Below are positions 5,746 to 46,843 of a stretch of 64,000 nt of DNA, in pieces. The position numbers and the translations under genes were made by a program. Source of the stretch: Dehalococcoidia bacterium (GTDB lineage Bacteria; Chloroflexota; Dehalococcoidia; GIF9; AB-539-J10). The notes beneath the pieces were generated by a model that was not told the origin of the DNA, did no database searches, and worked only from the letters and a program-made list of their open reading frames with translations. Numbering within the stretch: the first letter of the stretch is position 1; each line of letters starts with the position of its first letter. The stretch is taken from assembly GCA_030615625.1 (NCBI GenBank), contig JAUWYX010000004.1:1-64000 (forward strand), read 5' to 3'.

Positions 5746-6726
5746 CTAGATATGAAACTCGACTATGTCGCCATCTTGAAGTACATGTCCCTTGCTAACC
5801 CTCTGCCCATCATACTTTCCTGAGCCCCAAACGACTGCATACTTCAAAGTTTGATAGAAGTCCTTATGGAGGCTCTCAGCAGCTTTTTCCACTGTGCTGC
5901 CTTTCTCCAGTATCATAGGGTCAGTCAGGTCGGCCTTGCTGCCGGGGGTCTTGGTATAAACCCGGACGATATTCAAGGCTTGATAAACTGCTCTTTTGAA
6001 CTCCTCCAGGCCGCCACCTTCCCTGGCTGAAATGGAAACCAGGGGAAACAGCTTGGCATATTGTGAACGCAAGCGCTCCCAATTCTCGTTTGAACCTGCC
6101 AGCTCATTCTTGTTCCCCACAATCAGCATCTTCCTGGGATAACTTCCCGGAGTTGCTTGTGCACCACCATCTGTTAAGGGCTCTATTCTTGCTTCTCTTA
6201 GCCCTTGGAGAGCTGCCTCTACCTGGCTTATTGGCTCCAGGGATAAATCTATTACAATGGCAATGAGGTCAGCGTTTCTAAGGGTATTTGCTAGTAGTAC
6301 TCTCACTTCTTTGTGCCCGATGGGTGGCGTATCCACCAGTTGTATCTGGATATCTTCAAACTTCATCATACCCGGAATCGGGGTTTTGGTAGTGAAGGGA
6401 TATTCAGCTATTTCTGGAATAGCCTCGGTTACCGTCGCTAGTAGCTGTGATTTCCCGGCATTGGCTGGCCCGACTAACATTACCTGTCCGGCGCCCTCCC
6501 TGCTAATATAAAAGCCTGTTCTCCTGGCTGTGGCGTACTTTCTTTCTGCCTCCTGGGAAAACCTGGCAATCTTCCGCCTTAGCGCGGCATGGAGCTTATC
6601 GGTGCCTTTATGCCTGGGCATAATGGCAAGCATTGCTTGCAGGGCGGCAATTTTTTCCTCTGGCTCCCTGGCTGACCTGTATCTCTTCTCAGCCTCAAAA
6701 TACTGTGGCGGTAGATTCGCTGGCAT
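5746..6726 (-). CDS. DRG/Obg-like GTPase with TGS domain
   Basis: A 326-residue GTPase. An alpha-helical N-terminal region (residues 1-75) precedes the G domain: G1 is GPANAGKSQ, the switch/G2 region contains YPFTTKTPIPGMM, G3 is DTPP and G4 is NKNE. The C-terminal TGS domain ends in KYAVVWGSGKYDGQRVSKG then a short beta segment. The order helical domain, G domain, TGS resembles archaeal/eukaryotic DRG proteins more than bacterial Obg, which has an N-terminal glycine-rich domain. DRG-type GTPases associate with ribosomes or RNA. No Shine-Dalgarno is evident before the ATG at 6726. It is the last ordinary gene before the tRNA-Lys cassette array. Confidence 0.88.
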   Translation of the reverse strand: MPANLPPQYFEAEKRYRSAREPEEKIAALQAMLAIMPRHKGTDKLHAALRRKIARFSQEAERKYATARRTGFYISREGAGQVMLVGPANAGKSQLLATVTEAIPEIAEYPFTTKTPIPGMMKFEDIQIQLVDTPPIGHKEVRVLLANTLRNADLIAIVIDLSLEPISQVEAALQGLREARIEPLTDGGAQATPGSYPRKMLIVGNKNELAGSNENWERLRSQYAKLFPLVSISAREGGGLEEFKRAVYQALNIVRVYTKTPGSKADLTDPMILEKGSTVEKAAESLHKDFYQTLKYAVVWGSGKYDGQRVSKGHVLQDGDIVEFHI

Positions 6727-6829
6727 ATAACTAATTTTAACATTATGCCCTTTCTATCGAAACATCCAGTGCTTTCCCCCTTCCTTCACAAAAAAGGGGC
6801 TGGTTAGCTGTGATTTATACAGTTAAGTA

Positions 6830-6877
6830 ACTTTTAGTTTTTGATGGTGGTGAAAAGTTCGTTAGCAAAAATGTTAG
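6830..6877 (+). repeat. array repeat R0, right end only
   Basis: Contains only the terminal part of the array repeat: CTTTTAGTTTTTGATGGTGG, then the GAAAAGTTCGTTAGC and ATGTTAG boundary motif. The tRNA-derived part is missing. It marks the outer (left) edge of the array. Confidence 0.8.
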
Positions 6878-6941
6878 TAAATGGTTACCTTGACTTTAAA
6901 GCTTTGAAAAAATAATATTAGGATAGAAGATGAGTTAGAGA

Positions 6942-8012
6942 ATGAATGAATTATTTGAAAGTTTGCTGCAAAGTGGTGAAATAAGGAAAACTGATTTCAA
7001 AAGAGACCAGTATAGGCTAGACAGCGAATACTTTAAATCAAAATTTGTGAAAGATATTCTTTGCATGGCTAATGCTCCTGGGGATGATGGATATATAGTT
7101 TTGGGTGTAAAAAGTGAGAGGGGAAAACCAGGAGAAGTAGTCGGTATTTCAGGCCATCATGATAGTGCGGACTTAGCAGGAATAGTCAATGGAGTAGTAG
7201 AAGCACCAATTCAGTTTGAATATCATGCTATTAAATATAAAGGCCGGGAATGTGCAATTATACATATTCCTAGTAGCATAGGTCGGCCACACTGGAGCAA
7301 AAGAGACTTTGGTATTTTAAAAAAGCATGTATTCTACACCAGGCGTGCCTCTGGAAATACTGAAGCTTCGATAGAAGAGATTCGGCAAATGTGTATCCAG
7401 ACTATTCGCCTCAGTGATGCTGTAAAACAAAGGGCAAAGTTATCTACTCATGTGACAGATGAATTAGCCACTCTAAATATGGACGAAAGAAAATCTCGAA
7501 TGTATAAGATGCTGAAACATATTAGCCCTAAAATTGGATTAAAAAATTATCGTTCTATTGTTTATAGAGATTTGCCGGAAATAGAGACACGTGGTGCGTT
7601 AATTGGTAGTTATAGTGATAAAGAAAAGCATGAATTCGTGATTTTCATGTATCCGTGGTCAGCTAAAATGCAAGATATCAAATGGTCCCGACTCAGAGTA
7701 GCAAGTATTTTAACGTCAGAATCAATCATTAGATTAAGGAATAAAGAGAAGGTACGATTGAATGTAAGCACTTTAATTCATATAGCTTATAAGAATATAT
7801 ATACAAGTGCGCTAGAAAATTGGTATTACGATTCCAAGAAGTTTACAAATGAGATTAACGAATCTTGGGGAAAAGTAATGATATGGAAGGGATATGTAGG
7901 AGGAGAAGAGAAGCATGAGTTCTTTATGCCAAATGTGTCATCAGAAGAAGAGCTTAAGGAAAGACTCATGCAGTTAATCGAATGGGCAAAGACAAATATA
8001 AAAAACCAATAA
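6942..8012 (+). CDS. AlbA_2/Schlafen-type putative DNA-binding protein
   Basis: A 356-residue protein whose N-terminal 150 residues match the AlbA_2 (formerly AAA_4, Schlafen-like) domain: an acidic/aromatic strand (RKTDFKRDQ), the helix with DILCMANAPGDDGYIVLGV near residues 38-55, then ECAIIHIPSS and a FYTRRASGNTEAS segment. The C-terminal 200 residues are unassigned. AlbA_2 proteins are nucleic-acid-linked and often found in defence or transcription-regulator contexts. It is the only array gene on the plus strand and sits alone in the first cassette. AT-rich codon use contrasts with the GTPase to its left. The start is the first ATG of the frame; a GAG-rich leader is present but the ribosome-binding site is weak. 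Confidence 0.7.
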   Translation: MNELFESLLQSGEIRKTDFKRDQYRLDSEYFKSKFVKDILCMANAPGDDGYIVLGVKSERGKPGEVVGISGHHDSADLAGIVNGVVEAPIQFEYHAIKYKGRECAIIHIPSSIGRPHWSKRDFGILKKHVFYTRRASGNTEASIEEIRQMCIQTIRLSDAVKQRAKLSTHVTDELATLNMDERKSRMYKMLKHISPKIGLKNYRSIVYRDLPEIETRGALIGSYSDKEKHEFVIFMYPWSAKMQDIKWSRLRVASILTSESIIRLRNKEKVRLNVSTLIHIAYKNIYTSALENWYYDSKKFTNEINESWGKVMIWKGYVGGEEKHEFFMPNVSSEEELKERLMQLIEWAKTNIKNQ

Positions 8013-8080
8013 AGCTATAATTCGATAGGATACGACAGGCTACAAAGTCTGTTTTTATTTATAGTAATTTGAAAGAGGTC

Positions 8081-8278
8081 TTGACAATTGATTTAGCTGG
8101 TAGGCCGTACAGGATTCGAACCTGTGACACCCTGATTAAAAGATACAAAAGGTATGTCCCTGAGCGTGGAAAGAAGTAATTCCTGATACCTTTCTATTGG
8201 CGATTTAGCTTCAGGTGGTGCTGTTTAGTACCATTTTGTTGTTTACGGTGGTGAAAAGTTCGTTAGCAAAAATGTTAG
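8081..8278 (+). repeat. array repeat R1 with tRNA-Lys 3' half
   Basis: Parts in order: TTGACAATTGATTTAGC; a tRNA-Lys 3' half (about 8097-8142, containing the T arm and the anticodon loop up to ATTAAAAG); then ATACAAAAGGTATGTC, a spacer, GATACCTTT, and the boundary motif at 8247-8278. AAAAGGTAT pairs with ATACCTTT as an inverted repeat. The tRNA similarity stops in the anticodon loop, so no functional tRNA is encoded. Confidence 0.85.
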
Positions 8279-8297
8279 CAAAAGAAGTATGGTGAAG

Positions 8298-8561
8298 CTA
8301 TTTTGATGGGCGTTTTCGTTTTTTACTAGGTTTTTCGGGAAAGTAATCGATGATTTTGCATAGAATGTCAATCATAATTTGTAAGTGCTCATCGTCAATC
8401 ATTAAGCGAACTTGCTCAACGGTGTAATCTGGGGTATTGGTTGTGAGGCTGACATAATTGATGCCATCTTCCCTATGGCTAGCAGTGATGCCATCTACAT
8501 ATAATGTTGGCAAGTCATTTCTTATAATTTCCTTGTCTTTAGAGTTCTTTCTATTTGACAT
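8298..8561 (-). CDS. small unknown protein, third gene of the MqsR/MqsA-like operon
   Basis: A protein of about 87 residues starting MSNRKNSKDKEI, with an N-terminal basic stretch, a beta-rich middle (TLYVDGITASHREDGINYV, then TPDYTVEQVRLMIDDEHLQ) and a basic lysine/arginine tail (KPSKKRKRPSK). I do not recognise the family. I prefer the ATG at 8561, which overlaps the antitoxin stop by 11 bases; an earlier in-frame ATG at 8585 is possible. The overlap indicates translational coupling with the antitoxin gene. Toxin-antitoxin systems with a third chaperone gene exist for MqsRA, but this protein is much shorter than SecB-like chaperones, so that role is not supported by size. Confidence 0.6.
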   Translation of the reverse strand: MSNRKNSKDKEIIRNDLPTLYVDGITASHREDGINYVSLTTNTPDYTVEQVRLMIDDEHLQIMIDILCKIIDYFPEKPSKKRKRPSK

Positions 8562-9099
8562 AAGTATGCTCCTCTTGACTAACAAATTTCTGCTGAAGGA
8601 ATGGGGTCGTAGGCTGTATTATCCTCGTAAGGAGTTTGTGGTACATTGGGATTCTAGCAATTGAAGCGTGCTTCACATATTTTGATGGATGGACGTAGAC
8701 CTGCGGTTGTAAGGGAAAACGGCCATCGCCGGTTCTCTTGAATCTAAGGACAGACTGTTTTAAGTACAAAGTGATTCCCACAAATTTGGTTTGATAAATA
8801 AAGCCGTGTTTAATTCGACGATGTTTATGCAATGCTTGGCGAGAGATACCTAGCATTGAAGCAACTTGGGTAGAGTTGAGAAAATTGGCAAGGGGAAATT
8901 GAATTAGTAGTTCATGAATAAGTCTGTTTCTCTCTGCCTCTATGGCACGAGACATCTCTTCTGTATAAAGAATGTCGTGGCAATCTGTACATTCATAGTA
9001 AGGAATGTTTGGAACCTCAATTTTACCTACGTAGAAGTCGAATATTTGAAGCGAATCAGATTTCACCTCGTAAACACCGCCACATTGGTAACAATTCAT
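8551..9099 (-). CDS. MqsA/YgiT-type antitoxin with unusual C-terminal half
   Basis: A 182-residue protein. The N-terminal zinc-binding domain has CYQC at residues 3-6 and CTDC at residues 37-40, as in MqsA/YgiT. A helix-turn-helix follows at about residues 74-98 (LNSTQVASMLGISRQALHKH) and looks like an excisionase/MerR-type helix-turn-helix rather than the Xre-type domain of E. coli MqsA. About 65 further residues extend the C terminus. It is expected to bind and neutralise the upstream MqsR-like toxin and repress the operon. The toxin gene ends 12 bases upstream, and toxin-first order is also typical of mqsRA. E. coli MqsA is about 131 residues, so the extension is notable. AGGAGG precedes the ATG. 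Confidence 0.75.
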   Translation of the reverse strand: MNCYQCGGVYEVKSDSLQIFDFYVGKIEVPNIPYYECTDCHDILYTEEMSRAIEAERNRLIHELLIQFPLANFLNSTQVASMLGISRQALHKHRRIKHGFIYQTKFVGITLYLKQSVLRFKRTGDGRFPLQPQVYVHPSKYVKHASIARIPMYHKLLTRIIQPTTPFLQQKFVSQEEHTYVK

Positions 9100-9111
9100 C
9101 AGAACCTCCTT

Positions 9112-9462
9112 TTAATAGTACGGTCTGTCTTCTTTAAAACTATTAATAATTAACTTTCCGTCTGCATCATCAATATACAAATGAATGTAAACATTTTCTC
9201 CAAAAAGTCGAGCTTTGTAAACATCAAAAACCCACCAAGCGTTTCTCTTAGAAGGGATTGACTTACAGAAATATGTTTCCTTTAATAGTTTAATGGCCTC
9301 AATTATTCTAGGTCTATTCCATCCAAAATCGGCAAGTGCAGAATCCTCAGCATTCTTTCTGATAAGAAATTCCCCACTATTTATTTTCTGTTTAACATCT
9401 GATAATTGATAAAAACTGCTTGGGCGATGAATATGCTTTCGTTTTTGCTTTCTTTTAGACAT
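9112..9462 (-). CDS. MqsR-like toxin (RelE-fold mRNA interferase)
   Basis: A 116-residue protein that aligns along its length with E. coli MqsR: a basic leader of 12 residues, then SSFYQLSDVKQKINSGEF, RIIEAIKLLKETYFCKS, WVFDVYKARLFGENVYIHL and LIINSFKED. Established catalytic or essential MqsR residues are K56, Q68, Y81 and K96. Here the equivalents appear to be K67, F79 (changed), Y92 and K110. It should cleave mRNA independently of or with the ribosome and cause growth arrest unless bound by the antitoxin. It is the first gene of a three-gene minus-strand operon filling cassette 2. The substitution at the Q68 position could alter activity. Confidence 0.8.
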   Translation of the reverse strand: MSKRKQKRKHIHRPSSFYQLSDVKQKINSGEFLIRKNAEDSALADFGWNRPRIIEAIKLLKETYFCKSIPSKRNAWWVFDVYKARLFGENVYIHLYIDDADGKLIINSFKEDRPYY

Positions 9463-9593
9463 CTTAAGATAGCATTAAAGTTGACGCATGTCAACCCAGA
9501 TGGTTGTTCACTAATATTAATTTTAACATATTGAAAAAAGCCCCAAAAATTATTTAATAGTAACTAAAATAATAAAAGAGACTTGATTGCGAG

Positions 9594-9826
9594 TATTAAT
9601 GCAATGAATAAATTAGTATTTTTGACTATTGACAATTGATTTAGCTGGTAGGCCGTACGGGATTCGAACCTGTGACACCCTGATTAAAAGATACAAAAGG
9701 TATGTCCCTGAGCGTGAAAAGAGGTAATTCCTGATACCTTTTTATTGGCGATTTAGCTTCGATTTGTACCACTAGGTCACTCTTGGTTTTTCATGGTGGT
9801 GAAAAGTTCGTTAGCAAAAATGTTAG
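9594..9826 (+). repeat. array repeat R2, the longest copy
   Basis: Begins with TATTAATGCAATGAATAAAT, which also occurs (with small changes) next to the complete tRNA-Lys at 12841. It continues through TTGACAATTGATTTAGC, the tRNA-Lys 3' half (about 9646-9690), the 9-bp inverted repeat AAAAGGTAT (9695-9703) / ATACCTTTT (9734-9742), TGTACCACTAGGTCACTC, and the boundary motif at 9795-9826. Two GTTAGCA direct repeats lie within the boundary motif. Confidence 0.88.
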
Positions 9827-9839
9827 CAGAACAACGGTG

Positions 9840-11078
9840 CTAGGTAATGCGCTCAGTGGCAATTAATCCTATTAGCGCTTCGCAAGCATTGAGATACATC
9901 CTTGTTGTGGAGATTTTAGGTTTCTTGCCACTGTGAGTTTCTGCACTTAACTTTGCATACATTGCATCAATTGCTGCTGCCATACCATTGATAAAAGTCA
10001 AAGTAGATTCGCTGGGAAGAGGTGACGGTCCTGCAAGTGTATAACGAATTCTCATTGCTCGAGTTACCGCAGATCCCTCCTTTGGCTTTTGGTACCAGGG
10101 AGAAGCTTGAATTTGAGATACTGGAGCCAACTTGTCTAATAGTTGCCTCAAAACCTCTCGCATACTATTCGAAGCTTGTGAAAGTGAGTCTGGTAAGTTA
10201 CTTTCTAATACCTGCCAAGCTCCTACTCGTTTTGATTCAAGTTCTGGGTCAATGCCTTCTAGGAAGCTCTGTATTAGAGCAACGGTGGGTGTTACGGCTG
10301 TTAATTGAGTAGGTGGTGGTGGTGTGGTCTTGGTAGAATCATCTTTTATAGGGCTTGTTTTTATTGCCTCAGAAGTGTTGTGGATTGGCTTAGATTTCTG
10401 AACGGGTGTGGTGCGTCCAAAAACTGATTCGAAAATATCACCGTAACCGGAAAATGCAGCTACCGATTTCTGCTGTGTTATAAGACTGTTAAGTTGACCA
10501 GTCAGATAAATGATACTGTCTTGGTCTTGGTCCATTAAAGCTAAGCCAAGTCGAGAAACCAGTTTATCTATAGCTGCATAATCTGATGTCTTGGTATTTT
10601 CTTTATTTAAAATCAACTGTGCTTCAGCAATAGCAGAATTAGCTCCATCAGTTACAGCATTAATCCCTGCGTCCTTAAGCGCTTTCGTAATAAGCTCGTC
10701 GGTTAAGACTAAGCCCTTATTATCAAATTTTTCCTCAATATGGGTATTAGATTTTGTTTCGGATGCTTTAACAGTGACATTACAGTGTTTGTCAATATGA
10801 AAAGTTAATGAGACCTGCGGAATACCAATAGGTTGCGGACGAATTTCAGAGAGTAGAAATTTCCCAATAAATAGATTGTATTTTGAAAGTGGTCTTTCGC
10901 CCCAAGAAATACTAATCTCTACTGATGGCTGATTATCACTAGCAGTGGAGAGGACTTGACTTCTCTTAGCAGGTAAAGGAGTACCTCTCCTGACAATTGG
11001 AGTAGCAATACCTCCAAGAGTTTCTATAGATAAGGTAAGAGGAAGGAAATCATAAATAATGGGTTCTTCTTTGGTCAT
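9840..11078 (-). CDS. orphan DnaK (Hsp70) substrate-binding domain fused to an unknown C-terminal domain
   Basis: A 412-residue protein. Residues 9-107 follow the beta-sandwich substrate-binding domain of DnaK: PLTLSIETLGG (DnaK PLSLGIETMGG), an LPAKRSQVLSTASDNQ segment (DnaK IPTKHSQVFSTAEDNQ), then SWGER, IPQVSLTFHID and VTVKASE. Residues about 124-210 are helical, like the DnaK lid. The entire N-terminal ATPase domain is absent. A short GYGDIFESVFG segment and a proline/threonine linker (about 215-262) lead to a helical domain (262-412) with SMREVLRQLLDKLAP that I cannot assign. It may recognise unfolded or phage proteins without ATP cycling. It sits alone in cassette 3, so a partner ATPase in trans is possible but not seen. 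Confidence 0.75.
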   Translation of the reverse strand: MTKEEPIIYDFLPLTLSIETLGGIATPIVRRGTPLPAKRSQVLSTASDNQPSVEISISWGERPLSKYNLFIGKFLLSEIRPQPIGIPQVSLTFHIDKHCNVTVKASETKSNTHIEEKFDNKGLVLTDELITKALKDAGINAVTDGANSAIAEAQLILNKENTKTSDYAAIDKLVSRLGLALMDQDQDSIIYLTGQLNSLITQQKSVAAFSGYGDIFESVFGRTTPVQKSKPIHNTSEAIKTSPIKDDSTKTTPPPPTQLTAVTPTVALIQSFLEGIDPELESKRVGAWQVLESNLPDSLSQASNSMREVLRQLLDKLAPVSQIQASPWYQKPKEGSAVTRAMRIRYTLAGPSPLPSESTLTFINGMAAAIDAMYAKLSAETHSGKKPKISTTRMYLNACEALIGLIATERIT

Positions 11079-11153
11079 ATCTAAACTCAGTGTAAATGCC
11101 TATATTCTTATTAAGTTCATTATAGCACTGCTAACTTGGACAAGCCAAAACGA

Positions 11154-11293
11154 AAAGATACAAAAGGTATGTCGCTGAGCGTGAAAAGAGGTAATTCATG
11201 ATACCTTTTTATTTGCGATTTAGCGTTGACTTGTACCGCTAGGTCACTCTTAGTTTTTCGTGGTGGTGGAAAGTTCGTTAGCAAAAATGTTAG
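11154..11293 (+). repeat. array repeat R3, lacking most of the tRNA part
   Basis: Starts at AAAAGATACAAAAGGTATG, exactly where R1 and R2 leave the tRNA sequence (only AAAAG remains). It continues through GATACCTTTTTATTTGCG, TGTACCGCTAGGTCACTC and the boundary motif at 11262-11293. The tRNA-derived half seems to have been deleted or never acquired. Confidence 0.82.
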
Positions 11294-11306
11294 CAGAAAA
11301 TATCAT

Positions 11307-12782
11307 TTAGTAATATTCTCTTCTCTCATCTTCAGATGGAGTATTATTTATAGGAAAATCCTTTCTCTTAGCAAGTATAATTTCTTTTTGATGTTTTTCC
11401 ATGATAAAATCGCGAGCTGCAGCTGCACCAGTAGTGTGGCTAGATGCCAATAAGAATCCTTTATTTATATTACCCATATCCATATAAGCAAAGAGCTGAT
11501 AAACATCAAGACCATCAGCTTGATCTCTTTTAATTTCCCATGCTTCGCCATCTGCTAGCACATCTATAGAACCAGCCAGGCCTTCGATGGTATATTCAGT
11601 CTTTACGTCATTTTTTTTACTGACGGGGTTATTTTCAAGCCAGTTCTTCAACCGGTCTCTTAGAAGTCTTTCAGGAATTTCGGCTGGATATCTCTTTAAT
11701 CTAAGATATCCTTTTTCCTCATCACCACCTTGTCCTTGTAGAATATCTTTTACTTTATTAATACAGTGAATAAAATGGTCATCCATTATGATAGAATTCT
11801 TAGTTATAGCTGTAGTGAATCCTTCGAGGAGATTTATCTCGCCTCTAACGAGATTGTAGTCATTGTGCCTGACGTTTACAATACCTAGTTCAGATAATTG
11901 ATGAAACAAAACAACGCGATCATAAAGAAGTACATCTAGGCCTTGTTTTGATAGCGATACAGCATAAGGATGGTAATGAGGCAAAGGATTAATTCCAAGG
12001 TCTTTTAATTCATTTTCTGTGGGAGCGTAACCGAATGTTAATTCAGCTTTCCAACCAGGTCCGGAAATCCTCCTATTTTCTATGACTGGTTTATTAGTTC
12101 TATTTGAAGGATGAAAATAATAAGGTTTTATTTCAATAATATCCCAAGAATATAGAACATCACCAGTTTTAGTGTTTCTTGAAAATAGATTGATTTCGGC
12201 GAGTCTATTTGCTGGCCTTAAAAATCTCCTATAACGTGCACCTAAATATGGAACTAAAGTCATTGTAATGGATTGTGGGTTAACATTCACGATAGGTTTA
12301 ATATTTTCTATACATATCTCGGTTCCTGATATATTGTTAAAATCACAACAATAACATTCTAATTCACCATATCTAAGTTCTCTAACAACTCGTGCTTGAG
12401 AATCAGTGGTGGTTTTCGTAGCTAAATATTTCAACTTACCTAATCCGGCAATAGCTTGTTTCATGCCAAGGCCATGTTCGTTAAGAGAATTTGCAGACTG
12501 TATTGCTGCAGGTGATAGAGCTAATCCCAGTTTATCTTGAGAAATACCGAAAGCATTATCCTTGATTAATATCATTGTGCAATTGTTCCTATCATCAACC
12601 CAAAATTCGATATTTACATTGAGTCTTAAATCAGGGAGTTTTGCTGCAATAGAATTATCTATCAATTCAGAGATTAAATCCTTGAAGTCATAAGTATTAT
12701 TACCAAGTTCATAGAAAATATTGTCTGAAGGTTTAACAATAACTTTTTCACTATATGGCTGTAACTGATCGACATTTATCAT
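11307..12782 (-). CDS. GHKL ATPase fused to a PD-(D/E)XK-like nuclease domain
   Basis: A 491-residue protein. The N-terminal GHKL/HATPase_c_3 domain shows the N box ELIDNS (39-44), G1 box DNAFGI (75-80) and G2 box EHGLGMK (102-108), as in MORC/Hsp90-type ATPases. A transducer-like middle region follows. Near the C terminus, GSIDVLADGEAWEIKRD with D407, E416 and K418, then DVYQL (Q429), matches the D...ExK...Q spacing of PD-(D/E)XK nucleases. An ATP-gated clamp coupled to DNA cleavage is the natural reading, which suggests an anti-phage or plasmid role; this is inference. It is the only gene of cassette 4, next to the complete tRNA-Lys, with AT-rich codon use. Confidence 0.78.
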   Translation of the reverse strand: MINVDQLQPYSEKVIVKPSDNIFYELGNNTYDFKDLISELIDNSIAAKLPDLRLNVNIEFWVDDRNNCTMILIKDNAFGISQDKLGLALSPAAIQSANSLNEHGLGMKQAIAGLGKLKYLATKTTTDSQARVVRELRYGELECYCCDFNNISGTEICIENIKPIVNVNPQSITMTLVPYLGARYRRFLRPANRLAEINLFSRNTKTGDVLYSWDIIEIKPYYFHPSNRTNKPVIENRRISGPGWKAELTFGYAPTENELKDLGINPLPHYHPYAVSLSKQGLDVLLYDRVVLFHQLSELGIVNVRHNDYNLVRGEINLLEGFTTAITKNSIIMDDHFIHCINKVKDILQGQGGDEEKGYLRLKRYPAEIPERLLRDRLKNWLENNPVSKKNDVKTEYTIEGLAGSIDVLADGEAWEIKRDQADGLDVYQLFAYMDMGNINKGFLLASSHTTGAAAARDFIMEKHQKEIILAKRKDFPINNTPSEDERREYY

Positions 12783-12840
12783 TTTTAGGACTCCTAAATG
12801 TTTGTTAGAAGATTTTTCTATAATCTACACCTTTTTCATA

Positions 12841-12893
12841 TATTAATGCAATGATTAAAATTGGTATTTTTGACTATTGAAAATTGATTTAGC
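12841..12893 (+). repeat. array repeat R4 flank next to tRNA-Lys
   Basis: The segment TATTAATGCAATGATTAAAA to AAATTGATTTAGC matches the same part of R2 (9594-9645) with a few substitutions and leads straight into the 3' end of the complete tRNA-Lys. This ties the intact tRNA to the array repeats. Confidence 0.8.
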
Positions 12894-12969
12894 TGGTAGG
12901 CCGTACAGTGTTCGAACCTGCGACACCCTGATTAAAAGTCAGGTGCTCTACCAACTGAGCTAACGGCCC
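12894..12969 (-). tRNA. tRNA-Lys (anticodon TTT), array-side copy with a T-arm mismatch
   Basis: The acceptor stem GGGCCGT/ACGGCCT, anticodon stem CCTGA/TCAGG with loop CTTTTAA, and encoded CCA are intact. The T stem reads GCAGG/ACTGT, so the normally invariant G53-C61 pair is G-A. The second tRNA-Lys at 47984-48059 has the expected C. The altered 3' part may have come from an integrated element. It may be poorly functional. Confidence 0.85.
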
Positions 12970-14375: not shown

Positions 14376-14425
14376 GAAATGTTAGCAGAAAAAGGGGAAG
14401 CGGAGAGTAGGCCGTACAGGATAAA
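14376..14425. repeat. relic of the array repeat right of tRNA-Lys
   Basis: AATGTTAGCAGAAAA (like the end of the R2/R3 boundary motif) is followed 18 bases later by TAGGCCGTACAGGAT (the tRNA-Lys 3' end and T arm). The order is reversed relative to R1/R2, as if a unit between the two words had been deleted. It lies in the 605-base gap 14198-14802, which otherwise has no clear gene. Confidence 0.5.
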
Positions 14426-14433
14426 AGGTAGAA

Positions 14434-14802: not shown

Positions 14803-15699
14803 ATGCCGCCAAGAAAAAATATGTTCGAACATAAATATGCTGATGTCAATAACATACGCCTCCACTATGTAACGGCGGGCAAGGGGAAATTGATAATGTT
14901 TCTCCACGGTTTTCCTGAGTTCTGGTACGAGTGGAAGAATCAACTTGCTGAATTCGGACGAGATTACCAGGCAGTGGCTCCGGATATGCGCGGCTATAAT
15001 CTTTCATCAAAACCTGTCGATGTAGAGCAATATCGAATGAAATATCTCATCGGGGATATTCGTGCTCTTGCCGAGCACCTTGGGTATAAGAAGTTTATCC
15101 TCGTGGCTCATGATTGGGGTGGTGCGGTAGCCTTGCCTTTCGCTATACGTCATCCTGATTATCTGGAGAAGCTCATAATAATAAATGCCCCACATCCTGT
15201 TACCATTATACGTGAGCTCCGCGATAATCCGGAGCAGCGGAAAGCCAGCCAGTATATTCTCGTACATCGTACCCCTAAGGCTGAAGAGATACTGTCTAGA
15301 AACAACTATGCTTTGCTTGCTAGTAACCTGCTGGAGGATGGGCTAAAACAGGGCTACTTCACGGAAGAAGATAAGAAAGCGTATATCGAAGCCTGGTCAC
15401 AGCCCGGTGCGCTGACCGGCGGTTTAAATTATTATCGAGCCACTCATCTCGGCTCTTTTACAGGTGAAAGCGACGATATCTTGTCGGCAGACCCTTCTTT
15501 GTTTATAGTTAAGGTACCGACGCTGGTAGTCTGGGGTGAGAAAGATAAGTACCTGCTTACGGGAAATCTGGAAGGTCTGGAAAAGTACGTACCAAACCTG
15601 ACCATCAAGCGCATTCCCGATGGCTCGCACTGGGTCATTCATGAAAAGCCGGGGCTGGTTAATTCCTATATCAGAGAATTCATCACTGCCAAGGCCTGA
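14803..15699 (+). CDS. alpha/beta hydrolase, epoxide-hydrolase-like
   Basis: A 298-residue hydrolase of the epoxide hydrolase/haloalkane dehalogenase branch. The oxyanion motif HGFPEFWYEW lies near residues 45-54. The nucleophile elbow VAHDWGGAVAL gives the aspartate nucleophile of this branch (residue about 105). A late acid lies near VVWGEKDKYL and the catalytic histidine in IPDGSHWVIHEKP. The aspartate nucleophile separates it from serine esterases. It would open epoxides or remove halide with water, but the substrate cannot be told from sequence. AAGGAGG is visible before the ATG. It overlaps the end of the convergent HTH gene by 17 bases. Confidence 0.85.
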   Translation: MPPRKNMFEHKYADVNNIRLHYVTAGKGKLIMFLHGFPEFWYEWKNQLAEFGRDYQAVAPDMRGYNLSSKPVDVEQYRMKYLIGDIRALAEHLGYKKFILVAHDWGGAVALPFAIRHPDYLEKLIIINAPHPVTIIRELRDNPEQRKASQYILVHRTPKAEEILSRNNYALLASNLLEDGLKQGYFTEEDKKAYIEAWSQPGALTGGLNYYRATHLGSFTGESDDILSADPSLFIVKVPTLVVWGEKDKYLLTGNLEGLEKYVPNLTIKRIPDGSHWVIHEKPGLVNSYIREFITAKA

Positions 15700-16030
15700 A
15701 TAGCCTTTGCCACCATGTTTGCTTAGTGGTCTGCTTAGGGGCTTCCAGAAGCAATAATCGTTCCTGAAGGGATTCTGCTTTAGCTTTCCAATAGCCGACT
15801 TCCTGGGATAATTGCTCTATTCTATTGACAAGGGGTTGGGTTGATAGGGTATTATCTGATAATGGCTTAGTGAGCAGGGGTAGTTCGTCGATAATGTATG
15901 ACCCCCCGAACTTGGAAGGGACTAGCCTGGCCTTGAGCTTGCCAGACTTGATATACCGACGGATGGTAACTATTGAGACCCCTAAAGCCTCGGCAGCCTC
16001 TCTTAATGTATAGCCATCCATTAGGAACAT
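15683..16030 (-). CDS. HTH protein with coiled-coil tail, possible excisionase/regulator
   Basis: A 115-residue protein. Residues 4-55 form an HTH_17/MerR-like DNA-binding domain (YTLREAAEALGVSIVTIRRY, then IKSGKLKARLV), as in excisionases and small regulators. A coiled-coil region follows (about 65-100, QLSQEVGYWKAKAESLQERL) and the tail WWQRLFRPW is basic and aromatic. AAGGTG precedes the ATG. The gene is divergent from the tyrosine recombinase 267 bases away, with tRNA-derived repeats between them, which suggests control of or assistance to recombination. A general regulator is equally possible. Confidence 0.65.
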   Translation of the reverse strand: MFLMDGYTLREAAEALGVSIVTIRRYIKSGKLKARLVPSKFGGSYIIDELPLLTKPLSDNTLSTQPLVNRIEQLSQEVGYWKAKAESLQERLLLLEAPKQTTKQTWWQRLFRPWQ

Positions 16031-16121
16031 TGTAACACCTTGGTCAATGTCATTGGAATGGGGATGATCAGTCTGACCAGGGGTGTCGTATAACTATATT
16101 GACCAGGGAAACAGAGAGTGA

Positions 16122-16238
16122 GCCGTACAGGATTCGAACCTGTGACACCCTGATAAAAAGTTCGGGAAGAAAAAAATAGATACAAAAGCAGATGAAATGA
16201 GCCATTTTGACACCCTGATTAGGGCTGACACCCTGATT
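16122..16238 (+). repeat. tRNA-Lys-derived repeat cluster (R6) beside the recombinase
   Basis: A tRNA-Lys 3' fragment (GCCGTACAGGATTCGAACCT onward, 16122-16155) is followed by two more copies of its core TGACACCCTGAT at 16208-16219 and 16226-16237; the first copy is at 16143-16154. Remnants AGTTCG and ATACAAAAG of the array repeat also occur. It may be an attachment region or recombinase binding region. Confidence 0.65.
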
Positions 16239-16297
16239 TTTTCTCAGAGGCCGGGTCTGAAACCGACAAATAATGATAGAGGAGGTTAAGATCCAGC

Positions 16298-17281
16298 ATG
16301 TCAACTCATATGCACAACCAGGAGAAGGCAAACACCTTATCTGAACTCATAGACTACTACGAAGTTTGCAACAGAGCTGAAGGCAAAAGCTACAGAACAA
16401 TAGGCTGGTATTCTGCAAACCTAAAGCGTTTTCGTAGCTACCTGAAAGGCAGGCACCTCTCAGAATCATTAGATACCATCGACAAAAAAGTGCTCCGCGA
16501 ATATGTACTCTATCTGCTCAAAAGGAATAGATTCGAGAATCACCCTTACGTCCCACTCAGGACAGAGCCATTGTCGGCCGCGACGGTCCACGGTCATGTT
16601 AGAACCCTGCGGGCGTTCTTCAGTTGGCTTGTAGCTGAAGGCTTGACTGAAGAGAATATTGCCAAGGATTTGAAACCACCCAAGCTGGTCAAGAAGGCGG
16701 TATCTACATTATCGGACGAGGAAATAATCGCCATAGTCCACACACTGAACCCTAACAATCATTGTGAGGCGAGGAATCTGACAATCTTCATGCTTCTGCT
16801 TGATACCGGGCTCAGGATAGGGGAACTTGTTAGCCTTAAGATGCAAGATATTCACATCAACGAGGCATTCGTAAAGGTAATGGGCAAGGGCAAAAAGGAG
16901 CGAATCGTGCCTATCGGAAACAACGCACAGAAGGCATTACAGCGGTATCTCTTCCGTTACAGGACCAGACCCGCGCATGCGGGGATTGAAAATGTTTTTC
17001 TGTCAGTACATGGCACTCCCTTAACTGAGAACAACATGCGACTGATGTTTGCCCGGTTAGGGCAGAGATCGGGAGTCCATCGACTTCATGCCCACCTTTG
17101 CCGGCATACTTTTGCTACAAGGTTCCTAACTAATGGTGGTGATGTCTTCACCCTGCAGCGAATACTTGGGCACTCCACATTGGAGATGGTAAGACACTAT
17201 GTGAATTTGGCATCAAACGACGTTATTATCAAGCATCAGAGGTGTTCGCCGTTGGACCGCTTGAATCTACATAGAGCCTAG
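16298..17281 (+). CDS. tyrosine recombinase/integrase (XerC/D-like)
   Basis: A 327-residue recombinase with a core-binding SAM-like domain (about 12-120) and catalytic domain (about 135-310). The catalytic set is complete: R173 (TGLRIGELVSL), a lysine near 199-200 (GKGKKER), H266-x-x-R269 (HAHLCRHTFATRF), H292 (LGHSTLEMV) and the nucleophile Y301 (RHYV). It should cut and rejoin DNA at short core sites through a 3'-phosphotyrosine link. GAGGAGG is upstream of the ATG. It lies 3.3 kb to the right of the tRNA-Lys array, with three copies of the tRNA-derived core just upstream, so it is a candidate to act on the array in trans. No phage or plasmid structural genes accompany it. Confidence 0.9.
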   Translation: MSTHMHNQEKANTLSELIDYYEVCNRAEGKSYRTIGWYSANLKRFRSYLKGRHLSESLDTIDKKVLREYVLYLLKRNRFENHPYVPLRTEPLSAATVHGHVRTLRAFFSWLVAEGLTEENIAKDLKPPKLVKKAVSTLSDEEIIAIVHTLNPNNHCEARNLTIFMLLLDTGLRIGELVSLKMQDIHINEAFVKVMGKGKKERIVPIGNNAQKALQRYLFRYRTRPAHAGIENVFLSVHGTPLTENNMRLMFARLGQRSGVHRLHAHLCRHTFATRFLTNGGDVFTLQRILGHSTLEMVRHYVNLASNDVIIKHQRCSPLDRLNLHRA

Positions 17282-40080: not shown

Positions 40081-41706
40081 TTACCTCTCGTCAAGAGTGG
40101 GATACATCCGGTCACCAAGATCATTGGGGTCTAACGCCTGTTTAATCTTACGCTGCCAGGTGTGTGTGGCTGGCTGCTTGGCCAGATCTTGCTGCAGTTC
40201 TTCGTGCGTTTTACCCACAGCAAGGTACATGCCTTCCTTCCCGGGCGGGATGTTATGCATGGCTTCTTCTTGTATACAGTGCTTCATCCACTCTACGGCG
40301 GCAGCAGTCGATACCTTATCGGCCACATCATAAAAACCGAACTGCTCCAGCCCGCAGTTCCCCCCGCCGCTGATGGAGCCGACACACCCCATCATCGAAT
40401 CGCTGCCGCAGTCCACCAGTAATCCCTTCTCTTGGTATTCTCTGGTCGCATCTTCGGCGAGCGGTCGGTATTTTTTCACAAAGTCTGGCGTGCCGACCTG
40501 CATGAAGTTGCCTACCCAACCACCGGTATAGACGAAGTTCAGATTCTTCTTACCCAGCCTGAGCAGGTACAATAACGCAAACTGCTCCATTTCCGGCTCC
40601 AGCCACTTCTTAACTTTCCAGCCCCCGGTTTCTTCCAGTATCCGCTCCAGCACCTTGTCCTGATACTCAATATCCCGCTGGCTCATGCCCACCAGCACCA
40701 GCTGGAACGATCTCCTCATTTCTTCAGTGAACTCTTTTACCTCCTGCTTTTGCACAAACTCCTCGATGTCATCAAGCGATTTGGTGGGGTCCTGGTAGAG
40801 CATCCAGAAAGCCGGACCCAGGTCCGCACCCAGCATGGTCCACTGCCGGTGCGCATAGTAACCTATCTCGTTATCATATAATCTGTAATAGGCTTCGAAT
40901 AAACTATCCCAGTCCTTAAAGGCCAAAGTATATGCCCTGAAGTTTCCGGGCAGCGGAGAGCGGTAAGCGGGCGCGGTACCCTCAACGGGAAACTCCACCG
41001 GCCCCGGCCAGGGAGACAGCTTCACGGCGCATTTGGTATATACGCCCAGACCACCTCTGGCTCCCAGCGCTCCCCTGACGATACCCCTCATGCTCGGGCC
41101 CGGGCCTTCAGCACAGAACCAGCCGCACCCGGAACCGATGGAGCCTGTTCTTAATATTTCACCATTGGGCATAACCCACTCCGCCCCCAGCAGGTTCTCC
41201 CTGAGCTCGCCGGTGTAAATTGAGGTGCCGCCGCTTCCGTGATAACAGGTAGCGCCGACTAAGGTAGAGCAGCTGGCCCCGGCGCCGGTCACGGTGCAAT
41301 TCAGCCCTCGTTTCATCACCTCTGCCTGGAGCACGCCGGCGATAGCATACGGCTCTATCACGGCGAACATGTTCTTCTCATCAATCTCAAGGATACGGTC
41401 CATACGCCGCATGTCCAGCTGGATAACGCCCTCAGTAAGGGGAGCACCGTAAAAGTACCATCCCGTGGAATAGGGTTTTACTTTTATCTTGTATTTGTTG
41501 CAGGTTCTTACTATCGCCTGGACCTCTTTGGTACTGCCCGGCAATAAAGCGGCCTCCGGCCGGGGCATGAACTTGCTCTGGTTGGGACGGACGGTTTCAG
41601 CCAGCCACTGGTAAGCGTATGAGTCCATTACAGCGGGGTCTTCTGAGATATATCCGGGGCCCACTATATCTTCCAAAGCACGGTACGCGTCTCTTGATAA
41701 TGCCAT
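40081..41706 (-). CDS. FAD-linked oxidase of the VAO/PCMH family
   Basis: A 541-residue flavoprotein. The N-terminal PCMH-type FAD domain shows RPEAALLPGSTKEVQAIVRT, then VKPYSTGWYFYGAPLTEGVI (the pyrophosphate loop region), VIEPYAIAGVLQAEVMKRG, and RGGLGVYTKCAVKLSPW near the domain end. The C-terminal cap is of the vanillyl-alcohol-oxidase/4-cresol-dehydrogenase type. The start at 41706 has AAGGGAG upstream; the frame extends to 41745 inside the Fe-S gene. It is the last of three minus-strand genes (flavoprotein, Fe-S protein, flavoprotein). It probably oxidises an aromatic or hydroxy-acid substrate. Confidence 0.85.
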   Translation of the reverse strand: MALSRDAYRALEDIVGPGYISEDPAVMDSYAYQWLAETVRPNQSKFMPRPEAALLPGSTKEVQAIVRTCNKYKIKVKPYSTGWYFYGAPLTEGVIQLDMRRMDRILEIDEKNMFAVIEPYAIAGVLQAEVMKRGLNCTVTGAGASCSTLVGATCYHGSGGTSIYTGELRENLLGAEWVMPNGEILRTGSIGSGCGWFCAEGPGPSMRGIVRGALGARGGLGVYTKCAVKLSPWPGPVEFPVEGTAPAYRSPLPGNFRAYTLAFKDWDSLFEAYYRLYDNEIGYYAHRQWTMLGADLGPAFWMLYQDPTKSLDDIEEFVQKQEVKEFTEEMRRSFQLVLVGMSQRDIEYQDKVLERILEETGGWKVKKWLEPEMEQFALLYLLRLGKKNLNFVYTGGWVGNFMQVGTPDFVKKYRPLAEDATREYQEKGLLVDCGSDSMMGCVGSISGGGNCGLEQFGFYDVADKVSTAAAVEWMKHCIQEEAMHNIPPGKEGMYLAVGKTHEELQQDLAKQPATHTWQRKIKQALDPNDLGDRMYPTLDER

Positions 41707-41725
41707 TTTCTGCTCCCTTCCGTTG

Positions 41726-42997
41726 TTATAGCGCCATCTGAACAAGGTCTATAATGTCATAGACCTCGATTTTTTCATCTTGGCTTTTGACCGTATCGGC
41801 AAAGTTCCTTTCACACCATGGGCAAGCGCTGACTATCGCCTCTGCACCAGTGGCCTTTGCTTCGGCAAGCCTTTCTGCGGCGGTCCAAGCGGCAAAGTCC
41901 GGGTATGCTTCCAGTACCCCGCCGCCGGCACCACAGCACCAAGCATACTCTCTGATTCTTTCCATCTCCACCAGCGCTAGGCCCGGTATGCTCTTTAAGA
42001 CGTTCCTTGGGGCATCGTATACCCCCCAGGCACCGTTATACCTGGGTTTGCTCGGTTTCCACACCGGAATCTGCCCGTATATTTTCTCTCTAGTGCCCTG
42101 CCAGGGCACATACGGCTCGCCCAGCCTACCCAGATGGCAGGGGTCATGATAGGTAACGGTCAAAGGCACACTCCTAGTCAGTTTTATCTTGCCTTCCTTG
42201 ATAAGGCGGTTGATATATTCCACCACGTGAATAACCTCAAAGGTGAAACCTATTTCAGGATAAAGCCGTTTAAAGGTGTAGTAACACTCAGCACACGGTG
42301 TGACCACCGTCTTCACTCCGGCATCAGCCCATACCCGGGTGTTTTTTCTGGCACATCCGTTCAGCTCTTTACGGTATCCCCACTGGTAAACCCTGCCACC
42401 GCAGCATGATTCGTTCTCCCCCATGATACCGATATCCACACCAGCGTCCCTGAGCATCATGACGGCCATCCTGGCTGTCTTCTGCAATCCCTCAGCATAG
42501 CTGTAACGGCAGCCGGCATGAAAGACCACCGCAGCCTTTTCCTCGGCCAGATTTTTTACATCCAGTCCATCAGCCCATTTGCCCCTATTCACCCCGGGCT
42601 CCATCATCATATTCTCTTCTTTATGAAGGTTATCAATATAAGGCTTGTGCTGGGGCAGCGTCTGTCCATCCTCAACCAGCTTGAAGCGCATTTCGCGCAT
42701 TACCTCCAGCCCCTCGATGTTATAGCGGCAGATTTTATCGGAGACATCACATGCCCCACCCATCTGGCATTTCCAGACAATATCTTTCAGCTCGTCATTA
42801 TAGCCGATCCTGCCCTCGAGCAGGGAAAGACCGACGGATAACCTGCCACCGAGCGAGTAGGCCTGAAAATTACAGTACTCCATGCTGGGACAGGCCCTGG
42901 CAAACCTGGCGCTTTTTATGTGGTCAAACGGGATCCACTTGCAGTAGGAGCAACGGCTGCAGTTCGTACAATCATCCCTATAATCCTCTAAAGCCAT
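41726..42997 (-). CDS. CCG-domain iron-sulfur subunit (GlcF/HdrD-like)
   Basis: A 423-residue protein. Near the N terminus CTNCSRCSYCKWIP may ligate a cluster. Two CCG domains follow: AGCRYSYAE, ESCCGGRVYQWGY and TPCAECYYTF; then YHDPCHLGRLG, YAWCCGAGGGVLEAYPD and SACPWCERNF. CCG domains bind a noncubane [4Fe-4S] cluster in HdrB/HdrD, or transfer electrons in glycolate oxidase. Flanked by two VAO-type flavoproteins on the same strand, it should accept their electrons and pass them to the membrane or ferredoxin pool. Confidence 0.88.
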   Translation of the reverse strand: MALEDYRDDCTNCSRCSYCKWIPFDHIKSARFARACPSMEYCNFQAYSLGGRLSVGLSLLEGRIGYNDELKDIVWKCQMGGACDVSDKICRYNIEGLEVMREMRFKLVEDGQTLPQHKPYIDNLHKEENMMMEPGVNRGKWADGLDVKNLAEEKAAVVFHAGCRYSYAEGLQKTARMAVMMLRDAGVDIGIMGENESCCGGRVYQWGYRKELNGCARKNTRVWADAGVKTVVTPCAECYYTFKRLYPEIGFTFEVIHVVEYINRLIKEGKIKLTRSVPLTVTYHDPCHLGRLGEPYVPWQGTREKIYGQIPVWKPSKPRYNGAWGVYDAPRNVLKSIPGLALVEMERIREYAWCCGAGGGVLEAYPDFAAWTAAERLAEAKATGAEAIVSACPWCERNFADTVKSQDEKIEVYDIIDLVQMAL

Positions 42998-43027
42998 ATC
43001 CTTTTATACCTCGACTTTTCATTTTTG

Positions 43028-44500
43028 CTAGAAACAAAGCTTGCCCGGGTTCAGTATATTATTGGGGTCAAATATCCCTTTGATGGTCTTTATCATTTCC
43101 TTGTTACCGGCATCCCGGTTATACACCATATCCGCCCATATACCGTAAGGCCGGGAGAAATAAGCCCCCTGCTCTATCAAGGCTTCACTGCACGTGTCCA
43201 GTAATTCCCTGACATGGTCACTTTCTATCTTGTTCCCAGAGTTGTAAGGTAGATTGAATTCACAGTGACAGGCGGTACCCTGGTGCTGCGGCTGGAGGTA
43301 AATACCGATATCCGAGACCGGATATCGCAGCGCATTTGCCGCAGCAAAAACCGTATTGACAAATTCCGAAATCTTATCCAGCGTGCTCATGAAGAAAATA
43401 TCCTGACAGGCACCTTTGTAAGTTAGCTTCCAGTAGGTTACCGGAGACGGATTGAGTATGGTTGACATTACCTGTCCGCCCCCGATGCCGGAAACCGCTG
43501 GAAGTAATTCTAGGCCGAACTGATGCACTATGTCCCTGGTATCTTTTTCCTGAAAGTCCACCTTTTCCTCCGGGAAAAGGTCACGCCCGGCGATTCCCAT
43601 AATGATAACCCATGGTGGCAGTTTATTTTTCAGGGCTTGTATTCCGTCAGCATCCCTACTCAGGATAGCAGCCAAGCTAGCACTGTTTAATACAAGGAAT
43701 TCATCACCCAGCCTGACTTTCAGCAGTCGGTAAGCGCATTCTACCAGGCCTTTCAGGTTATCCGCCGGTATGAAGAAAAACCTGTGCACCTTAGGCAAAA
43801 CCTCACATTTTACTGATGCCCAGGTCACGATACCGATACTCCCCTGAGCACCGGAAACGAGCCGGTAATAGTCCACCTGACCAGGACCTCCGGAGAAAAC
43901 TTGGGCCAGACCCATTTCCCATTGCTGCTCAAGCGTGGGGTAATAGCCACCTGCGTCACCGGTTCGCAGTATCTCCCCATTGCCCCAGACTATCTCCAGG
44001 CATCTCAATGGCTCAAGCAGTGTGTGGTTGTACTTGGGTACCAGTGTCGGCTCCCTCTCCAACAGACTAGCGATTACTGACTTTGACTGGCGGGGGAGCA
44101 GTGGCGTGGAGAGTCTCAAGCCCTCTTCAGCTAAGGCCGGTTGCAGCTGCGCATAGGTTACTCCCGGCTCAATTAGCACCATCCTGTTTCTGCGGTCAAT
44201 CCTGATAATCTTATCCATCCGGCGCAGGTCAATGATGACTGCTTCCGGCACGCTCGGCACGGTATCACCATGAAAGTGGGGCTCACCTGAACTTACCGGT
44301 ACCAGGGGTGTTTTTGTTCGGTTGGCCCACGTCACAATCTTTTGCACATCATCTGCATTACGGGGTTGTACAACTAACCGTGGCTGCATCGGCAAGGTAA
44401 AGCTATTATCATGAGAGTAGCTGTCAAGGATCTTGTGTTCTTTGATGATCTTTTGCTTGCCTATCATCTCCATCAGATTATTACTTGTTTTGACATTCAA
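43028..44500 (-). CDS. second FAD-linked oxidase of the VAO/PCMH family
   Basis: A 490-residue flavoprotein with the PCMH-type domain PRLVVQPRNADDVQKIVTWA, then VPVSSGEPHFHGDTVPSVPE, LIEPGVTYAQLQPALAEEG, and GSIGIVTWASVKCEVLP. A C-terminal cap ends IFDPNNILNPGKL, the family's usual finish. The start is TTG with GGGGGAG upstream. It shares only the family fold with the third gene of this cluster. It is the first gene of the three-gene operon; a 390-base intergenic gap separates it from the divergent aldehyde dehydrogenase. Confidence 0.87.
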   Translation of the reverse strand: MNVKTSNNLMEMIGKQKIIKEHKILDSYSHDNSFTLPMQPRLVVQPRNADDVQKIVTWANRTKTPLVPVSSGEPHFHGDTVPSVPEAVIIDLRRMDKIIRIDRRNRMVLIEPGVTYAQLQPALAEEGLRLSTPLLPRQSKSVIASLLEREPTLVPKYNHTLLEPLRCLEIVWGNGEILRTGDAGGYYPTLEQQWEMGLAQVFSGGPGQVDYYRLVSGAQGSIGIVTWASVKCEVLPKVHRFFFIPADNLKGLVECAYRLLKVRLGDEFLVLNSASLAAILSRDADGIQALKNKLPPWVIIMGIAGRDLFPEEKVDFQEKDTRDIVHQFGLELLPAVSGIGGGQVMSTILNPSPVTYWKLTYKGACQDIFFMSTLDKISEFVNTVFAAANALRYPVSDIGIYLQPQHQGTACHCEFNLPYNSGNKIESDHVRELLDTCSEALIEQGAYFSRPYGIWADMVYNRDAGNKEMIKTIKGIFDPNNILNPGKLCF

Positions 44501-44890
44501 TTTTCAATCTCCCCCATTGTCATTAGTAAACTGAGTGCTGTCTCATTTTTAATAGTATTTCCTTCTACGAAGTAGAAGGTCAATCCGTAAAATTTGAAAA
44601 GATTTTAAGCTCAGTCCCACAAGCGCTTCATGTTTACTGATTAACTGCCTTAGTAGTTACAGAAAACAAGAACTCAATTTAAGTAATACTAAAAACTTTT
44701 TTGGTATATGTCAATACCACTATTGACAAATACAGCTAATAATAAGAGTTGTGAAAATTGATGACACAAAGAGATCAGCGGTGGTAATTTACACCGCTTG
44801 ACGGGACGCTATCTATCAGGGTAATGTATGACTAACTGATGTATAGTAAAAATTTAAGAAGGTCTAAGAAAATAAATCAGGAAGGTAATA
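44501..44890. other. divergent intergenic region between flavoprotein operon and aldehyde dehydrogenase
   Basis: AT-rich, no gene. A TTGACA word lies at 44723-44728, in TACCACTATTGACAAATACA, and a partial palindrome GGTATATGTCAATACC is at 44703-44718. It could hold both promoters and an operator, but no complete -35/-10 pair is convincing. Confidence 0.35.
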
Positions 44891-46384: not shown

Positions 46385-46402
46385 TAACGGAGGAGATATA
46401 AA

Positions 46403-46843
46403 ATGCCGTTAAATACAAGCGCCTCGGTTATCAGTTTTGCTAAGCAGCTGGAAGCGGATTCTGCTGGCTTTTATGAAAAGATGGCAGAAAGATATCCCAA
46501 AGCGGCAGAGCTTTTTCTCACCTTTTCCAAAGAGAATAATAACTATACCATGATGATTCAAAGGGCATACTACGGCGTTATCACTGATGCCATTGAGGGG
46601 TGTTTTGCCTTCAGTGTAGAAACCGATAAATATACGTTTGAGAGAGAACCCGCGAAGGAACTAGGCCACACTAATGCCTTAAATCAGGCCATTGATATGG
46701 AGCAGAAGCTCATCTCGTTTTACACTGATGCTGCCGAACAATCAAAAGCGTTTATGGCAGATGTGCCCAGGACTTTTTTAATAGTAGCCAAGAAAAGAAA
46801 GGATCGTGAGGATAAACTAAGAATGCTTCTTAAGGAGACATAA
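46403..46843 (+). CDS. ferritin-like helical protein
   Basis: A 146-residue all-helical protein: FAKQLEADSAGFYEKMAERY at residues 12-31, then KAAELFLTFSKENNNYTMMI, and a later NQAIDMEQKLISFYTDAAEQ. The repeated E...Y and E-x-x-x spacing resembles rubrerythrin/ferritin-like domains, but a complete di-iron ligand set (two ExxH) is not visible: there is no histidine at the expected place. It may be a non-iron-binding relative. GGAGG is upstream. It follows the aldehyde dehydrogenase closely and is 6 bases before the next small gene. Confidence 0.6.
   Translation: MPLNTSASVISFAKQLEADSAGFYEKMAERYPKAAELFLTFSKENNNYTMMIQRAYYGVITDAIEGCFAFSVETDKYTFEREPAKELGHTNALNQAIDMEQKLISFYTDAAEQSKAFMADVPRTFLIVAKKRKDREDKLRMLLKET

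Follow-up and report, generated by a model that had tools for sequence, protein, structure and literature searches.

Organization of the locus

The window is the whole stretch of 64,000 nt presented above, from the genome designated G000. An intact gene for a tyrosine recombinase of 327 amino acids occupies 16298–17281 on the forward strand, and a gene for an HTH_17 protein lies divergently to it at 15683–16030 on the reverse strand. Between the two genes, the 12-mer TGACACCCTGAT occurs on the forward strand at 16143–16154, 16208–16219, and 16226–16237, as an earlier note on this DNA had reported. Further occurrences at 8125, 9673, and 47894 (the last on the reverse strand) bring the number in the window to six, and the count expected from 100 dinucleotide shuffles was 0.00. 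In reversed orientation, the 12-mer is an exact match to the variable loop of tRNA-Lys together with the 3′ strand of its anticodon stem. The core at 16143 is contained in a longer tRNA-Lys 3′ fragment on the reverse strand (39 nt, 16122–16160; 95% identity to an array copy, E = 5e-11), which bears out a second claim of that note. The sequence anatomy set out below indicates that this core makes up one side of an attR attachment site, whereas the occurrences at 16208 and 16226, the second 18 bp after the first, are a pair of a different kind, which we call half-site copies 1 and 2.

A short putative coding ORF of 30 codons (16197–16289, forward strand), read by hand, spans both copies, and its ribosome-binding site and ATG are kept in some orthologues in the alignment. 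The sequence after 16160, AGATACAAAAG, had been taken for a remnant of the array repeat. In the orthologue alignment it pairs with the leader ribosome-binding site AGATACGAAAGGAGGTG and not with the array repeat, and this reading of 16160–16190 was dropped.

Two complete tRNA-Lys(ttt) genes are present in the window, at 12894–12969 (tRNA-Lys(a), amid inserted DNA) and at 47984–48059.

Sequence features of the recombinase and of the HTH protein

The Pfam scan of the recombinase gave Phage_integrase (1.3e-39) and SAM-like N-terminal domains, and no arm-binding domain. Residues R173, K197, H266, R269, H292, and Y301 were invariant in 10/10 and 5/5 aligned homologues; we take these to have the R, K, H, R, H, and Y active-site roles of tyrosine recombinases. 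The nearest solved structures are XerD (1a0p, 5e-26) and XerA. The protein resembles XerC, XerD, and XerA in possessing core-binding and catalytic domains only, but it resides in a tRNA-bounded island and scores far below the NCBIfam equivalog cut-offs for XerC, XerD, and XerA (189, 189, and 169 bits against 335, 330, and 220, respectively). It also does not exceed the cut-off for integron integrases (63 against 265 bits). Its best match among the other 51 family genomes showed 39% identity, a scan of viral_contigs returned one distant match with 26% identity, and its named relatives are mostly Dehalococcoidia. We describe it as an Xer-like recombinase of class II, the class in which the tRNA fragment is in reverse orientation relative to the integrase gene (int).

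In regards to the HTH protein, its description as excisionase-like was upheld by matches to HTH_17 (Pfam, 8e-9) and to PHROG 2907 "excisionase" (6e-6). The gene was found in 14 of the 20 genus members (73–91% identity in the relatives), nearly always without the window recombinase, and in none of the other genera among the 52 family genomes. On this distribution we reject the HTH protein as an excisionase partner of the recombinase, and we regard the gene, which lies outside the island just beyond attR, as a genus-level gene and not as part of the integrase module.

Attachment ends and body of the island

Window positions 16108–16161 showed 98% identity over 54 bp to the 3′ end and flank of tRNA-Lys in the related genome G032 (L081 6768–6821). 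In G032, the tRNA-Lys gene stands beside a tRNA-Gly gene and is followed directly by the sequence found at window 16108–16121. This site is nearly empty, with the GTPase gene (window 5746–6726) approximately 170 bp downstream. The intact tRNA-Lys(ttt) gene of the window at 47984–48059 (reverse strand; tRNA-Lys(b)) lies beside tRNA-Gly (48400–48471) and has a 3′ flank different from that in G032. Taken together, the G032 flank at one place and the other flank at tRNA-Lys(b) point to displacement of the native 3′ half by 32 kb. Fragment 16122–16160, with its native downstream flank at about 16105–16121, would consequently be attR, and tRNA-Lys(b) would be attL, of an insertion that interrupts the tRNA at its anticodon loop. 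By the same comparison, the 3′ half of the tRNA at 47984–48059 is evidently that supplied by the element, and the recombinase gene reads as located just inside the attR end.

The island body (17430–46843) has a syntenic counterpart in the related genome G024 (contig C54). By the Pfam matches, its genes encode an RCC1-repeat protein, a corrinoid-activation protein (RACo), URO-D, AFOR, a periplasmic binding protein, acyl-CoA and aldehyde dehydrogenases, and FAD enzymes. RACo was found in 17 of the 52 family genomes, so the gene content of the island is not peculiar to it. The stretch at 17.4–46.9 kb is syntenic with the G024 block at 47–94% identity, the portion 40081–46843 being inverted. In G024, an intact tRNA-Arg(cct) gene lies at one end of the block, and at the other a 3′ fragment of tRNA-Arg (78% over 32 nt) stands displaced, still joined to its native flank; no recognisable int was found in the block. 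The tRNA-Arg cluster is uninterrupted in G000, being a site without what G024 carries there, and the tRNA-Lys loci of G024 and G032 do not contain the block. These reciprocal free sites indicate that one block lies in two different tRNA genes of two related genomes. An approximately 30-kb metabolic island thus occupies different tRNA genes in sister genomes.

The region therefore shows the marks of a tRNA genomic island, with a regenerated tRNA at 47984–48059, a displaced fragment at 16122–16160, and free sites in relatives (G032 and G024 for tRNA-Lys) as well as at tRNA-Arg in G000. Insertion into a tRNA gene with its restoration is a known mode, described in the Islander report (PMC4383910). 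Islander-type islands resemble the window in the regenerated tRNA, the displaced fragment, and an int gene inside by one end, whereas the window differs in having two related int modules at opposite ends, one of them truncated, and inverted half-tRNA copies.

We put a probability of roughly 70% on the following reading. The recombinase would be an Xer-like, arm-less tRNA-Lys integrase situated inside attR of an approximately 32-kb island (16155 to about 48015), and the island would have entered the tRNA-Lys gene at 47984–48059 at its anticodon loop. The copies at 16208 and 16226, together with the copy at 47894 at the other end, would be additional half-sites for the integrase, with sequences that follow the target tRNA, and the cassettes to the left would belong to another integrase family, one with an arm domain. 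The integrase may bind the copies, which would then serve either as attP arms or as an operator by which it shuts down its own gene, or in both roles. The attR overlap ATAAAAAG is one base off that of tRNA-Lys(b), ATTAAAAG, and because of this mismatch the attachment site may be dead. No far tRNA was found for the other class II elements, so the window is the locus from which the 32-kb span is read. The reversed int at attR is more likely a difference in layout than the result of inversion between inverted cores, since the class II orthologues share the same reversed layout.

Truncated integrase at attL

A truncated second int gene of 39 codons (47699–47818, reverse strand) lies at the attL end. 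Window positions 47601–48060 showed 71% identity over 315 bp to the stretch of L248 that comprises the tRNA-Lys gene, the leader, and the beginning of int; identity to the corresponding stretch of L249 was 69%. The half-site copy at 47894–47905 (reverse strand) lies in the leader of the truncated gene and is inverted relative to tRNA-Lys(b). The tRNA-Lys of L248 and L249 deviates slightly (AATCAGGTGGTC), and the leader copies at these two loci match that variant (CGACCACCTGATT and CGACCACCT).

Given the truncated gene at attL, the island may consist of two accreted elements. The 30-kb block would then have been integrated by the truncated int, and the intact int would mark a second, smaller element accreted at the same site. 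The int remnant and the tRNA-Lys-specific half-site directly downstream of tRNA-Lys(b) have the usual class I layout, and tandem int genes occur in several relatives, but no third tRNA-Lys fragment that would mark an element boundary was found between 16160 and 47984. We consider such accretion possible and on balance doubtful. Our preferred reading is that the block was moved by the intact integrase, presumed active, rather than by the truncated one.

Class II orthologues of the window recombinase

Class II orthologues with 57–73% identity were found in G389, G422, G129, G121, and L239, the last being from a named Dehalococcoidales genome. In the tree, the window clade (support 94/99) stands apart from the arm-type integrases, which form a separate starred clade. 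The orthologues have a common layout consisting of the reversed tRNA fragment and then two copies 18 bp apart; the G121 contig ends inside the fragment. In G129, the target fragment is that of tRNA-Lys(ctt) and copy 2 reads GACCTGCTGA. L239 is an exception, as its tRNA fragment reads GACCACCTGA and its copies read GACACCCTGA, with no match to the adjacent fragment. In G389 and L239, arm-type DNA (GTTAG repeats) abuts the outer side of the tRNA fragment, which would fit a common insertion site for the two integrase types.

Contig G042:C5 has lost its int except for the first codons and retains attR and the leader; it is exactly 18 bp shorter and has one copy instead of two, copy 2 being absent. 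In L251, the core is joined directly to the half-site copies. The losses between half-sites are exact in both cases, from the core to copy 1 in L251 (9880–9960) and from copy 1 to copy 2 in G042 (L149 12300–12400), and could be due to recombinase action or to slippage. These deletions are a hint of recombination at the copies themselves, by which the copies could be updated.

Half-site copies upstream of related integrase genes

We searched for homologues of the window recombinase in 52 genomes of the family, 84 of the order, and 393 of the class. The search gave 58 int rows, a few being the same gene fetched twice; L157, a second copy of the window gene, was left out. After rows without a same-strand tRNA gene within 260 bp and duplicate leaders were dropped, there remained 32 distinct leaders with such a tRNA at most 260 bp upstream; these tRNAs were those for Lys, Pro, Val, Ile, Arg, Gly, Met, and Ala. 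Addition by hand of five further loci with a same-strand tRNA, and of the right end of the window, gave a set of 38, from which L241 was left out for its predicted tRNA of 96 nt.

An inverted match of at least 7 nt to the 3′ anticodon-stem half of the leader's own tRNA was present in 28 of the 38 leaders and absent from the other 10, and 4 of the 38 had such a match in direct orientation. The mean longest match was 8.18 nt, compared with 5.73 nt after 10,000 tRNA reassignments (sd 0.24, maximum 6.71), none of which was as good. When each distinct tRNA half was represented by a single row (n = 18), the mean was 7.94 against 5.33 nt and again 0 of 10,000 permutations was as good; the reassignments leave some shared ancestry in. 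Integrases with 62% identity that target Pro(ggg) or Pro(tgg) have copies reading GACCACCT or GACCTCATGG, and the Pro and Ile group usually has two copies approximately 47 bp apart. Judged from these sequence comparisons, inverted half-tRNA copies upstream of int are a signature of the arm-less, Xer-like integrase family, and the copies track the target tRNA. They are probably bound by the integrase.

Complete family elements with an identical second tRNA end (attR) of 41–43 nt were recognised at 3 of the 16 loci examined, at tRNA-Pro (16.6 kb), tRNA-Lys (2.8 kb), and tRNA-Ala (16.3 kb). The 2.8-kb element of G127 (L211 89–2980 of the reverse complement) has its own int and an identical attR and is the smallest seen here; its half-site copies flank the core on both sides.

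Pairs of tandem window-type int genes 1–2 kb apart were observed in L222, L223, L224, L225, L226, and L228, some beside one tRNA-Arg(tct) or tRNA-Val gene. On visual inspection, an HTH protein seems to be encoded between the tandem genes of L224.

Alternatively, the copy pair could have arisen by chance or could simply reflect a repeat in the leader peptide (DTLI..DTLI), as the copies are 18 bp apart and in frame within the 30-codon ORF. We find this hardly credible, because L227 and L240 keep the copies though the leader ATG is lost, and because the copies track the tRNA across relatives. A weightier alternative, which we place a little short of an even chance, is that the copies serve solely as an operator for int autorepression and are not recombination sites. 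They lie in the short leader between att and the int start, and int promoters that overlap att sites are commonly autoregulated according to a study of intS (PMC2951348). Against this, copies lie on both sides of the core in the 2.8-kb G127 element and in the window, including the end without an intact int. For KplE1 intS and other tRNA-associated autoregulated integrases, the overlap of int promoter and att is like that in the window, so binding could repress the integrase's own gene. IntS differs in having separate arm-type sites bound by its N-terminal domain, whereas the window integrase has no arm domain and its candidate extra sites are the half-site copies.

Our small search of the open literature, as far as its texts were available, found no description of an arm-less integrase with inverted half-target-tRNA copies beside its gene. 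We tentatively propose, with the odds rather against it, that the arm-less lineage uses copies of one half of its target tRNA as material for attP arms or for an operator of its own, and rewrites them at each tRNA switch (Lys ttt to ctt, Pro ggg to tgg, and Pro to Val or Ile). If true, the target of any such integrase would be readable from the DNA in front of its gene. To our knowledge, the way in which tyrosine integrases gain new tRNA targets is poorly understood. A target-tracking DNA signature that lies outside the protein, in close relatives, makes target choice and its evolution testable with short oligonucleotides.

Cassette array and arm-type integrases

A defence-type cassette array with tRNA-Lys(a) occupies 6804–12969, the cassettes lying downstream of that tRNA gene and separate from the island. 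Its repeat has three parts, namely T (the tRNA-Lys 3′ half), A, and B (GTTAGCAAAAATGTTAGC). G039:C25 and G041:C30 each contain an element at a tRNA-Lys(ctt)-like gene, with T-A-B at one end and an arm-domain integrase at the other (the G041:C30 tRNA is called Gln-ctg by ARAGORN and has a near-identical body). Compared with the window, their A parts showed 93% identity and their B parts 93% and 90%, and the arm-type integrase gene ends in GTTAGCAAAATGTTAGC against the tRNA. The N-terminal arm-binding domain is present in these homologues at weak scores, one of the two being just under the Pfam cut-off. G041:C136 and G015:C158 contain relatives of the arm-type integrase, there at tRNA-Lys(ttt). 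TTAGC pairs were found at the 3′ end of 7 of the 17 arm-type int genes whose ends are not cut by a contig end, and near 0 of the 58 window-type int rows.

We counted as array genomes those with a repeat match at E ≤ 1e-15 extending beyond T, which gave 12 of the 52 family genomes. Of these 12, 5 have a homologue of the window type (E ≤ 1e-30) and 3 have an arm-type integrase, counts that are limited by the draft state of the genomes. Since neither type regularly co-occurs with the arrays, the cassettes seem mostly int-less. The link of the cassettes to the arm-type integrases is thus drawn from att anatomy and not from co-occurrence. These comparisons suggest that the cassettes are a separate system matching the arm-domain integrase family, with the tRNA-Lys attachment site alone in common with the island.

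The earlier note had put forward the recombinase and the HTH protein as the best local candidate for moving the cassettes 3–9 kb away, here the defence cassettes at 6.8–12.9 kb. The tRNA-Lys core is common to both systems, the HTH protein matches the excisionase PHROG, and no arm-type integrase was found in G000 at E ≤ 1e-40, which leaves room for a role in trans. On the other side, elements with an arm-domain integrase have at their far ends the same A/B arm DNA as the cassette ends, while the window recombinase lacks an arm domain and its relatives lack the TTAGC pair. Its att site bounds the 32-kb island on its right, and the array lies outside, on the left. Although 12 of the 52 family genomes carry array repeats, the best family match of the recombinase is the one at 39% identity, and 7 of the 12 array genomes are without a homologue at E ≤ 1e-30. 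Both homologues without the repeat and arrays without the recombinase were found, in disagreement with the co-occurrence that the proposal implied, and the breadth of the HTH gene within the genus speaks against the HTH protein as a partner. We judge that the recombinase moving these cassettes is very improbable. What stands of the proposal is that the recombinase targets tRNA-Lys and that the cores derive from its target; the cores are real, and the partner and the cargo were misassigned. With two distantly related integrases at one tRNA-Lys site, proximity and a common core do not identify the mover of a cassette.

The ssrA islands of Dehalococcoides (PMC3146451) are similar in being arranged in tandem at one RNA gene, in being integrase-less in some cases, and in having been called possible cis-mobilizable elements. 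The cassettes, which may be cis-mobilizable, share T-A-B ends with integrase-bearing elements at tRNA-Lys(ctt). The ssrA islands differ in the use of a serine recombinase at ssrA, whereas the window has tyrosine recombinases at tRNA anticodon loops.

The genes of the cassette array encode an SLFN/AlbA_2 protein (PADLOC PDC-S50), an MqsR-like toxin with an HTH partner, a HATPase_c_3 protein, and an HSP70 C-terminus fused to pP_pnuc_1 (PADLOC Aga_Nuclease). At 14377–14430, between the HdrB-like and hydrolase genes, lies a decayed remnant of T-B that has lost internal sequence between two GAT repeats. A second T/A remnant lies beside tRNA-Glu in G000 (L017 13461–13510 and 17360–17455; G000:C3 135.5–139.5 kb), and G042 has a full T-A-B (L066 9093–9269) at the place syntenic with this remnant.
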